Shown piece after piece: positions 38,428 to 44,577 of a DNA stretch of 49,918 nt. Source of the DNA: Spirochaetota bacterium. GTDB taxonomy: Bacteria; Spirochaetota; UBA4802; UBA5368. Location of the stretch: contig DATIKU010000022.1 of NCBI GenBank assembly GCA_035477215.1, positions 1-49,918 of the forward strand. Reading direction: 5' to 3'. Position numbers and translations under genes: made by a program. Each line of letters opens with the position of its first letter. The stretch's first letter is position 1. The notes below the pieces were generated by a model. It was not told where the DNA came from and made no database searches. It saw only the letters and a program-made list of their open reading frames with translations.

Positions 38428-38826
38428 ATGAAACCATATATCGCGTTTTTCGATCTCGATAACACCCTGCTCGCCGGAAGCGGTGGAAGGTGTGTGGTTC
38501 GCTTTTCATGCAAAAACGGCCTTCTCAGCCACCGCGAGCTCGTCTTCGGAACATACTCCTCGCCCCTGCACCGGGCTCGAAACGCATAACGGCGTCCTTA
38601 CGGGCAGGCGGGCGGGTAAATACCGCCACGGCGCCGAGAAGCCCAACCGGGCCATCCTCTATTGCGCCACAAACGCTCAATCCCTGGAGAACGCCTTTGC
38701 TACGCCGATGCGGCGGCCGACCTCCCGGTGCTGCACAAGGTGGGTTTTCCCATGCGGGTTACACCCGCGCGCCGGCTCAGGCGTGTAGCCAGTCTCCGGG
38801 GATTGCCAGTCCTCCGGTGGAAATAG
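38428..38826 (+). pseudogene. Decayed HAD-IB family phosphatase
   Basis: Three pieces of one gene lie in three frames. The start reads MKPYIAFFDLDNTLLAGSGG (the HAD motif I DxDNT). A second piece near 38577 reads ETHNGVLTGRRAG. The end, in a third frame, reads YADAAADLPVLHKVGF (HAD motif IV region) then PARRLRRVASLRGLPVLRW and stops at 38826. Full-length HAD-IB proteins have about 220 residues; only about 130 codons remain, with at least two frameshifts and a deletion. Motifs II and III are gone, so the product would not be active. The length and spread of the fragments rule out a single sequencing error. Confidence 0.8.
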
Positions 38827-38961: not shown

Positions 38962-41214
38962 ATGAAGAAGACCATCATGATAATCGGCGGAGGGCTTTTG
39001 CAGACACCGGCCGTTCAGGCCGCAAAAAAATTGGGCCACCAGGTCATCGTAACCGACTACAACCCCAATGCCCTGGGGATGAAATACGCCGACATTCCCA
39101 TCGTCATGTCGACCCGCGATATAGAGGGTTCGGTCCGCGTGGCGAAAACACAGAACGAGATCACTCCCATACACGCGGTCCTAACCGTCGGCACGGATGC
39201 CTCGATGACGGTGGCGGCGGTTGCCAATGCCCTGGGGCTTCCCGGCATCAAGTTCGACGATGCCGAGGCTTCGACCAACAAGCTAAAGATGCGCATGCGC
39301 TTCACGGCCCACAACGTGCCATGTCCCAAGTTCCTTCCCGTCTGGTCACTCTCGGACGCAAAGAAGGCCTGCAAGATACTCGCGTTCCCGCTCGTACTCA
39401 AACCGACCGACAACATGGGCGCGCGCGGCGTAATGCGCATCGACAACCTCACGCAGATAGCCGAGGCCTTTAAATTCGCGAAGGCCGCTTCCCCCAGCGG
39501 CGAGCTCATCATCGAGGAGTTCATGGACGGACCGGAGCTTTCCATCGACGCGGTGGTATACAACGGGGAAATAACCATCACGGGAGTCGCGGACAGGATA
39601 ATCGAATGGCCTCCCTACTTCGTCGAAACGGGGCATACCATGCCCTCACAGCTTCCTGAAGACATTCAACAGGCCGCCTGCCAGGTCATGAGAAAGGGAA
39701 TCCTCGCGATCGGCATCGACAACGGCTGCGCAAAGGGCGACATCAAGCTGACCCGCCACGGCCCGATGATCTGCGAGCTTGCCGCCCGCCTCTCCGGCGG
39801 CTTCATGTCCGCCTACACCTATCCTCTCGCCACCGGCGTCGACCTCATCCGCGCCGCGATCGAGATTGCGCTGGGACAGGAGCCCGGCAACCTCGAGCCG
39901 CTGCATCACCGCGTGTCGATCGAGCGCGCAATCATCACGCGCCCAGGAATAGTGCGCCGCGCAAGCGGCATCGAAGACGCGCTCAAAATTGCGGGGATTG
40001 CCGAAATATTCATCAACGTCAAACCCGGCGACCGAGTGGTCGAGCCGCGTTCGAACGTTGAGAAATCGGGACACATCATTGCGGTCGCCGACACGCTCGC
40101 CGAAGCCGAGGAGGCGGTGAAGCGCTGTCTCGAGGTTTTATCAATAGAGGTCTTCGAGGAGGCCGAGCTCTCCATGGAGGTCATCCGCGTAGCGGCCCGT
40201 GAGCGCTTTAGAAAAGCCTGCTATGCCTGCAAGACCTGCGACGGCAAGGACTGCCCTACGGGCGTCCCCGGCATGGGCGGCGCCGGGACCGGCGCCTCTT
40301 TCCGCCGCAACAGCGAGGCATTCCGGGGCTATAAAATCAACACCCGCGTCATACACGCCGTCACCCATCCCGACACCTCCACATCTTTTTTTGGGACACC
40401 GCTCGCTTTTCCCGTAATGGCCGCTCCGATCACCGGCAGCGTCACCAATATGGGCGGTGCAATGGACGAGCTTGAATACAACCGCGCGGTCGTTCAGGGG
40501 TGCATTGAGGCGGGCACAATCGCCTTCGTCGGCGACGGCGCCACCCCCGAGAAATACAAGATAGGCATTCAGGCGCTCGCCGAGTCCGGAGGAGCGGGCA
40601 TCCCCATCTTCAAGCCGAGGGCCGATAACAGGGAAGTCCTGGTCAGAATCCAGGCCGCCGAACAGGTCAACGCGGTCGCGGTGGGAATGGACATAGACGC
40701 AATCGTTTTTAAGACCATGACGATGAAAAACCAGGCCGTCGGGCCCAAAAGCCCCTCAGATATCAAGGAGCTCATCGGCTCCACCCGCGCACCCTTCATT
40801 TTAAAAGGGATAATGACGGTACACGACGCAGTACTCGCAGTCGAGGCGGGCGCCCACGGCATTGTAATCTCCAACCACGGGGGCCGCGTCCTCGACGAAA
40901 TGGCGGGCACCATGGACGTTCTCGAGGAGATCGTACGCGAGGTGCGCGGACGCATCCGCATCATGATCGACGGGGGATTCCGCACCGGAGTGGACATTCT
41001 CAAGGCGTTGGCGCTGGGCGCGGACTTTGTGCTCATCGGACGCCCTGTGGCGATAGCCGCAGTCGGCATGGGCGCGCGGGGCGTGAGCTTTTACCTGAAT
41101 TCCCTCAGGCGCGAACTCGAAGAGGCGATGATCCTCACCGGCTCTGAACGGATTGCCGATATTTCCGGCGATGTAGTCCGGCGTCTCGCAGAGCGAAGCC
41201 CGACGGCCGTATGA
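38962..41214 (+). CDS. ATP-grasp ligase fused to FMN alpha-hydroxyacid dehydrogenase
   Basis: 750 residues in three parts. Residues 1-410 form an ATP-grasp ligase: a pre-ATP domain (IMIIGGGLLQTPAVQAAKKLG), VLKPTDNMGARG (Lys147) and the metal site CELAARLSGG. Residues 420-431 hold a Cys cluster C-x2-C-x2-C-x4-C in CYACKTCDGKDCPTG. Residues 435-745 are an FMN-binding TIM barrel like lactate/glycolate oxidases: PFILKG (Lys615), catalytic His639 in SNHGGR, IMIDGGFRTG and LIGRP. Similar clostridial FMN enzymes with the Cys segment are free-standing, about 340 residues. Both halves look catalytically complete. The fusion's substrate, presumably an amino or hydroxy acid that is ligated and oxidised, is unknown. 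Confidence 0.88.
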   Translation: MKKTIMIIGGGLLQTPAVQAAKKLGHQVIVTDYNPNALGMKYADIPIVMSTRDIEGSVRVAKTQNEITPIHAVLTVGTDASMTVAAVANALGLPGIKFDDAEASTNKLKMRMRFTAHNVPCPKFLPVWSLSDAKKACKILAFPLVLKPTDNMGARGVMRIDNLTQIAEAFKFAKAASPSGELIIEEFMDGPELSIDAVVYNGEITITGVADRIIEWPPYFVETGHTMPSQLPEDIQQAACQVMRKGILAIGIDNGCAKGDIKLTRHGPMICELAARLSGGFMSAYTYPLATGVDLIRAAIEIALGQEPGNLEPLHHRVSIERAIITRPGIVRRASGIEDALKIAGIAEIFINVKPGDRVVEPRSNVEKSGHIIAVADTLAEAEEAVKRCLEVLSIEVFEEAELSMEVIRVAARERFRKACYACKTCDGKDCPTGVPGMGGAGTGASFRRNSEAFRGYKINTRVIHAVTHPDTSTSFFGTPLAFPVMAAPITGSVTNMGGAMDELEYNRAVVQGCIEAGTIAFVGDGATPEKYKIGIQALAESGGAGIPIFKPRADNREVLVRIQAAEQVNAVAVGMDIDAIVFKTMTMKNQAVGPKSPSDIKELIGSTRAPFILKGIMTVHDAVLAVEAGAHGIVISNHGGRVLDEMAGTMDVLEEIVREVRGRIRIMIDGGFRTGVDILKALALGADFVLIGRPVAIAAVGMGARGVSFYLNSLRRELEEAMILTGSERIADISGDVVRRLAERSPTAV

Positions 41215-42741: not shown

Positions 42742-44577
42742 TCAGTTCGACCTTGTACTTTCATTCACCTCGAGGTCCTCGATCTTCGCAACGTCCTCGA
42801 ACCTGATATCGAGGCCCAGAACGCCGACAAGATTATCGTTGGCATCGGCGATGGGGCCAGAAACCGTTATCATGAGACTCCCGGTTATCTTCGAGGTGAA
42901 AATATCCGAAACATGGATCTTCCCGGTCTTCAACACGGTGATGAACCAGTCGCGGTCCGAGTAATTTTTGTCTATTAGGTTTTTGTCGTATTTCGACCTG
43001 TCGGTGATCTGCGCTATATGTCTGGTCACCTTGTCACCGTTTATATCCACCACGTACGCGAAGGACACGAAGGGATACTCCTCGACGAGATCCCGCAGCA
43101 GCACCTCCTGTTTCTCACGCTGCATGGACTTGATGTTTGGGTTTTCCAGGAACCGCTCGAGCAGCGAAAAGGCGTACTTTTTCTCGCGGAACTTGATCCG
43201 GTCGAAATCGGAAATGAAGTATACGGGCAGGTGCTTGCGCGCGAGCTTTTCCAGCTCCTCGTTCGACATCGAGGTCTCGCGACCCGCCTCGTACTGCTTC
43301 AGAATTTCCTTGTGCATGCCGATGACACCGGGGTGTTTTTTATCGATGGAACCCTCTCCGGCGAGGCCCAGGTGGCTGTTCAGCCATCGGGATATCCCCG
43401 CCGTCCCGCTTTTGTCGGTAATGGCGATGGCGATAGGCCTCTTTAAAAGTTTCTCGGTATTGAAGATGTTGTATATCTCCTCGTTCTTGATAAGCCCGTC
43501 CACGTGGATGCCGGCGCGCGTCACGTTGAAATCGGCGCCGACGAACGGGAAGTTGTCGGGGATCTTGAAACCGATCGATTCGAAGTAATGAGCCATATCG
43601 GTGATCGCGGTGAGGTCTATACCCTCATCATCGCCCGTAAGCGAAAGGTATTCGACCACCATCGCCTCGAGCGGAGTATTACCGGTGCGCTCGCCGAAGC
43701 CGAGGAGCGTCGTGTTGACGGTCTCGCAGCCGTACATCCAGGCATAGGTCGCGTTGGTGAATCCGCGGTGAAAATCGTTGTGGCCGTGCCACTCCAAAAG
43801 CTCTCCGGGCATGCCGCCCTCGTCGATCATCGCGCGGATCATTCGCGGCACCGAACGCGGAAGCTCCGCCATGGGGTAGGTCACACCATAGCCCATGGTG
43901 TCGCACAGGCGTATCTTGACGGGGATCTTCCCCTTCTCCATAATGCGTACCAGCTTCTGCGTGAAGGGTATGACGAACCCGAAAAAGTCGGCCCTGGTAA
44001 TATCCTCGAAGTGAAGCCGGGGGATGATATTATTCTCGAGCGCCGTATAAACGATCTCCAGGTAGTCTTCCATAGCCTCGCGGCGGGTCTTGTTGAGTTT
44101 CAGGAAGATATGGTAATCCGATACCGAGGCAAGGATGCCCGTTTCCTCGATTTTCATCTCTTTGACCAGTTCGAAGTCCTCTTTGTTCGCCCGGATCCAG
44201 GAGGTGATGCGCGGATATTTATACCCCTTGCTGCGGCAGCGCTCCACCGCCTCGCGGTCCTTCCGGGTGTAGAGGAAAAACTCGGAATGCGTGATGAGGC
44301 CGTTCGGCCCGGCCAGGCGGCGCAGGAAGTCGAAGATGTGCCCGACCTGATCCACGGTATACGGCGGCCGGGCCTGCTGGCCGTCGCGGAAAGTGGTGTC
44401 GGATATACGGAACCTTCCGGCCGGCACGAGCGGAATCATCTCGTTTCCGAACGGAATGCGGCATATTTTATCGTATGGAAAGATATCCCGGTAGAGGTTG
44501 GGCGACGGAGTGTCGTCCAGCTCGTGGTTTTTCATCGCTTTCGCGAATTTGATACTCTCTTTTCTCTCTATCGCCAT
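42742..44577 (-). CDS. DRE-TIM acyltransferase with C-terminal Cache sensor domain
   Basis: 611 residues. The first 470 are a DRE-TIM metallolyase/condensing enzyme of the isopropylmalate/homocitrate/Re-citrate synthase group: ISDTTFRDGQQ (Asp60), RLHFEDITRADF, and WHGHNDFHRG (His264, His266, Asn267, Asp268), then GFGERTGNTPLEAM. Residues about 480-605 form a Cache (PDC) module as found in chemoreceptors: FAYVVDINGDK, DKNYSDRDWF, VLKTGKIHVSDIFTSKITG, VSGPIADANDNLVGVLGLDI. Cache domains bind small molecules and normally lie outside the cell; no membrane span is present here. I infer ligand control of a carboxylate synthase. Such proteins have been misannotated as lysine methyltransferases. Confidence 0.85.
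   Translation of the reverse strand: MAIERKESIKFAKAMKNHELDDTPSPNLYRDIFPYDKICRIPFGNEMIPLVPAGRFRISDTTFRDGQQARPPYTVDQVGHIFDFLRRLAGPNGLITHSEFFLYTRKDREAVERCRSKGYKYPRITSWIRANKEDFELVKEMKIEETGILASVSDYHIFLKLNKTRREAMEDYLEIVYTALENNIIPRLHFEDITRADFFGFVIPFTQKLVRIMEKGKIPVKIRLCDTMGYGVTYPMAELPRSVPRMIRAMIDEGGMPGELLEWHGHNDFHRGFTNATYAWMYGCETVNTTLLGFGERTGNTPLEAMVVEYLSLTGDDEGIDLTAITDMAHYFESIGFKIPDNFPFVGADFNVTRAGIHVDGLIKNEEIYNIFNTEKLLKRPIAIAITDKSGTAGISRWLNSHLGLAGEGSIDKKHPGVIGMHKEILKQYEAGRETSMSNEELEKLARKHLPVYFISDFDRIKFREKKYAFSLLERFLENPNIKSMQREKQEVLLRDLVEEYPFVSFAYVVDINGDKVTRHIAQITDRSKYDKNLIDKNYSDRDWFITVLKTGKIHVSDIFTSKITGSLMITVSGPIADANDNLVGVLGLDIRFEDVAKIEDLEVNESTRSN

Follow-up and report, generated by a model that had tools for sequence, protein, structure and literature searches.

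At positions 38962-41214 of a 49,918-nucleotide stretch of spirochaete DNA (hereafter the window; Spirochaetota bacterium, contig DATIKU010000022.1), an ATP-grasp ligase and an FMN-dependent hydroxyacid dehydrogenase are encoded as one gene. Is this fusion genuine, how widespread is it, and what might the two activities do together?

Architecture of the fused gene

The gene is a single uninterrupted frame of 750 aa. Its features, and the remnant that precedes it, are as follows (Z scores from VIA-align).

38428-38823 (+): decayed HAD-family phosphatase, upstream of the fusion and separate from the enzyme
38962-41214 (+): complete fusion gene, ATG start, stop included
38962-40158 (+): N-terminal half, residues 1-399, L-amino-acid-ligase type ATP-grasp (ATP-grasp_4, ATPgrasp_N; L-amino acid ligase 3vot, Z 42.1)
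39382-39804 (+): ATP-grasp core, residues 141-281, including KPTDNMGARG and ELAARLSGG (Pfam ATP-grasp_4; conservation)
39934-40152 (+): LAL_C2, residues 325-397 (Pfam, 1.6e-17)
40159-41187 (+): C-terminal half, residues 400-742, FMN_dh/hydroxyacid-oxidase TIM barrel (Pfam, to residue 740, 5.5e-69; human HAO1, Z 38.8)
40219-40254 (+): four-Cys segment, C420-x2-C423-x2-C426-x4-C431, candidate [4Fe-4S] or metal site (sequence, conservation)
40804-40806 (+): Lys615 codon, flavin N1 lysine in a KGIM motif (alignment conservation)
40876-40887 (+): His639-Gly-Gly-Arg642, catalytic base and carboxylate-binding Arg in an SNHGGR motif (alignment conservation)

The open frame, the Pfam matches, the folds and their conservation establish that the fusion is genuine, as the first-pass annotation had proposed. 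We found no stop or frameshift at the junction, and roughly 50 of the 59 relatives have homologous full-length frames that run through it, at identities down to 43%; it is therefore neither a frameshift nor an assembly join. An assembly, frameshift or annotation artefact, in favour of which nothing was found, would have had to produce the same junction in some 50 independent genomes, and its probability is negligible. In an AlphaFold model built on a 38-sequence alignment the mean pLDDT was 91.7 but the pTM was 0.59, so that the predicted folds of both halves are reliable and their mutual orientation is not. Pyruvate carboxylase, to which Foldseek matched both halves, superposed with an rmsd of about 24 Å, matching only an ATP-grasp domain and a generic barrel.

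Both halves had been said to retain their active-site residues. This holds for the ligase, in which the ATP/Mg motifs (KP..., ELAAR) are kept and the K147 and R276 positions are conserved in all domain-bearing rows of the alignment, and for the Asp/Lys/His/Arg core of the flavin half (D579, K615, H639, R642) together with its phosphate motif (D670GG-R674). It does not hold for three classical substrate positions, which on alignment to glycolate and lactate oxidases are V/P435-436, R553 and M586 and which correspond, in glycolate oxidase numbering, to Tyr24, Tyr129 and Arg164. The residues that usually bind the substrate carboxylate thus appear mostly replaced, and because the redox core is kept while these positions are changed, the flavin half probably binds a different substrate.

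The four-Cys segment had been described as joining the halves. It is present, and C420, C423, C426 and C431 are conserved in nearly all fusions examined, but it is more than a linker: stand-alone relatives of the flavin half carry the same motif, so it belongs to that half, as the N-terminal part of a flavin-enzyme subfamily. Its C-x2-C-x2-C-x4-C spacing is ferredoxin-like, with the second Cys replaced by Tyr in an Asgard clade. From the motif, we consider it a candidate Fe-S site or a site for another metal such as zinc.

Each half resembles well-studied enzymes without matching any of them closely. The L-amino acid ligases BL00235 (3vot), RizA (4wd3) and BacD share the ATP-grasp fold, LAL_C2 and the conserved KP and ExxxR motifs with the N-terminal half, but are only about 22-23% identical to it, and these solved enzymes have no flavin domain. 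Glycolate oxidase/HAO1, lactate oxidase and LldD share the TIM barrel and the catalytic core, whereas in the fusion their N-terminal segment is replaced by the four-Cys segment. The pre-mycofactocin synthase MftD belongs to the same FMN_dh superfamily and acts on a peptide-derived rather than a simple substrate, but it has no ligase half; the fusion scores 110-114 against its model, for which the cut-off is 471. None of the curated NCBIfam models for LldD, lactate oxidase and MftD was reached (best 110-138 bits, cut-offs 376-645). Neither the fusion nor the four-Cys flavin subfamily is described in the open literature that we searched, which bears out the earlier remark that no enzyme of this architecture has been characterised. 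The fusion is thus a new combination of two known enzyme families, undescribed in that literature.

Two nearby genes are distinctive in their own right. The phosphatase remnant lacks residues ~51-132 and is shifted in frame relative to the intact 218-aa gene that stands before the fusion in a congener (L041). Further downstream, at 42742-44577 (-), an HMGL-like protein of the isopropylmalate/homocitrate synthase family has a PDC/Cache-type sensor domain at its C terminus, which is an unusual pairing.

Distribution of the fused and separate halves

Beyond the window's closer relatives, the fusion is found in most of 198 Spirochaetota genomes and in 28 of 60 Nitrospinota genomes. In a tree of 112 flavin halves, all fusions lie on one side of a single branch (support 100/98; recovered in all 200 bootstrap trees), and since this one branch separates them, a single fusion event would fit the data. 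In spirochaetes the fused gene is of ancient origin and close to universal, a core enzyme rather than the oddity of one genome; the first-pass annotation had missed both this spread and this antiquity. A 720-aa protein elsewhere (L246:8399-10558) combines a divergent ATP-grasp domain (26% identical) with an intact four-Cys flavin half and is possibly a second fusion event. An apparent second fusion of the ligase, a 1183-aa frame at L249, was set aside; its N-terminal 650 aa match nothing and look like out-of-frame read-through.

The two halves also occur apart. A treponeme of 1,139,633 bp (G255), further treponeme-like genomes and the families f43 and f47 have a ligase gene and, apart from it, a short flavin gene, and the short stand-alone flavin genes of spirochaetes keep the four Cys and every core residue. 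Some spirochaete families have the ligase only. In the large genus f15/g34, the fused flavin half has lost the four Cys and SNHGGR in the three genomes examined (L206, L207, L029), with the ligase half conserved, and by extension from these sequences the whole genus appears to retain a flavin half that is still fused but catalytically defunct. In one further fusion (G048), the flavin catalytic His is changed to Arg.

These lineages bear directly on the proposal that one enzyme couples carboxylate activation to hydroxyacid oxidation and may channel an unstable product. Because the flavin half can be lost or wrecked where the ligase is kept, and because treponemes and several further families encode the two halves separately, strict channelling is not required; the ligase is the constant part, and obligate channelling is not supported.

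A search for the fusion and for adjacent separate genes, which had been suggested as a check, thus recovered the fusion widely and the separate genes as well, but no orthologous ATP-grasp gene was found beside the stand-alone flavin genes of Clostridia, Desulfobacterota or Asgard archaea. These stand-alone flavin genes are annotated as 'alpha-hydroxy-acid oxidizing protein' and belong to the same Cys-motif subfamily (~34-53% identity to the flavin half); no characterised member was found among them.

Operon context of the ligase and flavin genes

Where the ligase is unfused, its neighbours are informative. In families f13, f24, f42, f43, f47 and others it lies in an operon of the order spiroSPASM (TIGR04321), an unknown gene, SpsF/PseG/methyltransferase, ATP-grasp, amidase, GerM-like and FlaA, in which the PseG-like, GerM-like and FlaA members are presumptive names, assigned partly by inspecting the sequences by eye. 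The spiroSPASM–SpsF–ligase–FlaA type was found at eight loci or more, distributed over several families. In G255, the flavin gene, with its full four-Cys motif and catalytic core, lies inside the same type of operon despite a genome of 1.14 Mb; this one genome is the source of the pathway linkage of the flavin half. In family f3, one fusion is separated from spiroSPASM–SpsF–PseG by about 6 kb. In several treponeme-like genomes (L230, L234, L236, L238, L240, L260, L261; e.g. L236:13014-13964 (-)), a protein of 317-368 aa that matches no Pfam family stands between spiroSPASM and SpsF, and by its position may be a further member of this pathway.

The same association appears across genomes. Ligase and spiroSPASM were both present in 178 of the 198 Spirochaetota genomes and both absent from nine, with 5 + 6 discordant (Fisher p = 8e-9; the ligase counted as present at E < 1e-40 and spiroSPASM at E < 1e-20, cut-offs that were chosen after seeing the tables); this p value overstates the independence of the observations, because seven of the nine joint absences come from one genus. 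All 11 discordant genomes are less than 95% complete. The genus in question is the Borrelia-like f39/g76 (1.0-1.8 Mb), from which the ATP-grasp ortholog, otherwise present in nearly all Spirochaetota, is absent, and spiroSPASM shows the same pattern. The joint absences also include G330 (99% complete), a second lineage without both genes. Outside the spirochaetes, the ligase half has its nearest named relatives (34-37%) in gene clusters for capsule and pseudaminate, beside sugar transferases, aminotransferases and methyltransferases.

The spirochaete SpsF/SpsG/spiroSPASM set therefore has the same phyletic spread as the ligase and shares an operon with the unfused halves, but the fusion gene itself is usually located elsewhere. 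It has no conserved neighbour across its order, and in the window's genome it is not near the pathway genes, spiroSPASM being on another contig (C31, against C22 for the fusion). A pyrimidine role, for which the nearby pyrBC genes might have spoken, was rejected, as this adjacency is confined to the window's own family.

A proposed role in glycan tailoring, and its alternatives

Operon linkage, co-occurrence and the capsule and pseudaminate relatives together point to sugar tailoring. Our preferred reading, to which we give a probability of roughly 0.45, is that the fusion is a two-part tailoring enzyme of a spirochaete-wide CMP-sugar/glycan pathway (spiroSPASM, SpsF cytidylyltransferase, PseG/SpsG-like protein, methyltransferase), the product being probably a flagellin glycan or another glycan of the envelope. 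The ATP-grasp half would activate a carboxylate with ATP to an acyl phosphate, which would be joined to an amine, of an amino-sugar or an amino acid, as an amide. The flavin half would interconvert a 2-hydroxy acid and a 2-oxo acid with FMN, and a cluster bound by the four Cys could export the electrons one at a time. The 2-hydroxy/2-oxo acid might be the acyl group destined for attachment, or else the sugar's own acid end. Both halves would then share one pathway with no need to channel, fusion being one solution and separate genes another that also works. The pathway assignment is moderately supported.

A competing reading places the enzyme in central carbon metabolism. Here the flavin half would be an FMN/Fe-S dehydrogenase of malate or a related C4/C6 2-hydroxyacid, and the ATP-grasp half would use the same acid or oxaloacetate. 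Of 13 Asgard loci with a stand-alone relative of the flavin half (43-46% identical), 8 are TCA operons, with the gene order fumarase–FMN–citrate synthase–aconitase or 2-oxoglutarate ferredoxin oxidoreductase–SdhAB–fumarase–FMN–aconitase; in five, the flavin gene immediately follows fumarase on its 3' side. This speaks for malate oxidation among the Asgard archaea. Their clade, however, is separate in the tree and carries CxxY instead of CxxC. The fusion of Nitrospinota is the first gene of a conserved operon that also encodes an HpcH/HpaI-like protein and ATP-citrate-lyase subunits. The malate/lactate dehydrogenase family PF02866 is missing from 47 of the 59 relatives of the window's genome. 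Yet PF02866 is also present in 25 of the roughly 28 Nitrospinota that carry the fusion, and the window's genus has no match to PF02866 or to citrate synthase (PF00285), and thus no TCA cycle for the fusion to serve. A simple replacement of malate dehydrogenase consequently fails as a general rule, and the HpcH/HpaI-like protein is no obligate partner, its relatives occurring in only 19 of 59 spirochaetes and in none of the window's genus. We regard the central-carbon role as unlikely for the fusion, though well short of negligible. It agrees with the glycan role in one respect, that the flavin half acts on a 2-hydroxy/2-oxo acid.

Only slightly less probable is that a dipeptide-type L-amino acid ligase and a general hydroxyacid dehydrogenase simply share a chain, without functional coupling. 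Each half does exist alone, the flavin gene without an orthologous ATP-grasp in Clostridia and Desulfobacterota and the ligase by itself in some spirochaetes; against this, one ancient fusion has been kept in two phyla with both halves strongly conserved in most lineages, and the split halves converge on the same operon type. That the flavin half serves chiefly as a structural or regulatory element, leaving the ligase as the sole working part, would suit the degenerate halves of f15/g34 and the His to Arg change in G048, but the window and nearly all other fusions retain every catalytic residue and the four Cys, as does the unfused gene in the treponeme with the most reduced genome, and we consider this very improbable.

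Two sets of genes merit mention apart from the spirochaete enzyme. The Asgard loci L113:4805-5857, L115:10004-11041 and L183-L187 encode a candidate FMN-dependent malate dehydrogenase with the C-x2-Y-x2-C variant of the motif. The Nitrospinota operon (L076:3264-10615, L173-L182) comprises the fusion, the HpcH/HpaI-like protein, and divergent ATP-citrate-lyase beta-like and 904-aa alpha-like subunits; in N. gracilis, divergent subunits of such kind have been assigned to the reductive TCA cycle (PMC3578206).

Returning to glycan tailoring, a link to flagellin is suggested by the adjacency of FlaA within the ligase operon, which may be incidental, and by the flagellins of Treponema denticola, which carry a novel glycan of 450.2 Da that is essential for filament assembly (PMC9481697). 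A bolder version, which we hold only tentatively, is that an amide ligase of the ATP-grasp type and a 2-hydroxyacid dehydrogenase with FMN and a [4Fe-4S] cluster form an unknown enzyme class and together make an unusual acyl-sugar or sugar-acid amide for the flagellin or envelope glycan. The syphilis treponeme, highly reduced as it is, would have kept this enzyme in split form, and Borrelia would have lost it. What began as a curiosity of one uncultured genome is a core enzyme across its phylum. Within a textbook flavoenzyme family it points to a branch that probably bears Fe-S, and for the unexplained flagellin glycan of treponemes it would put names to candidate biosynthesis genes.
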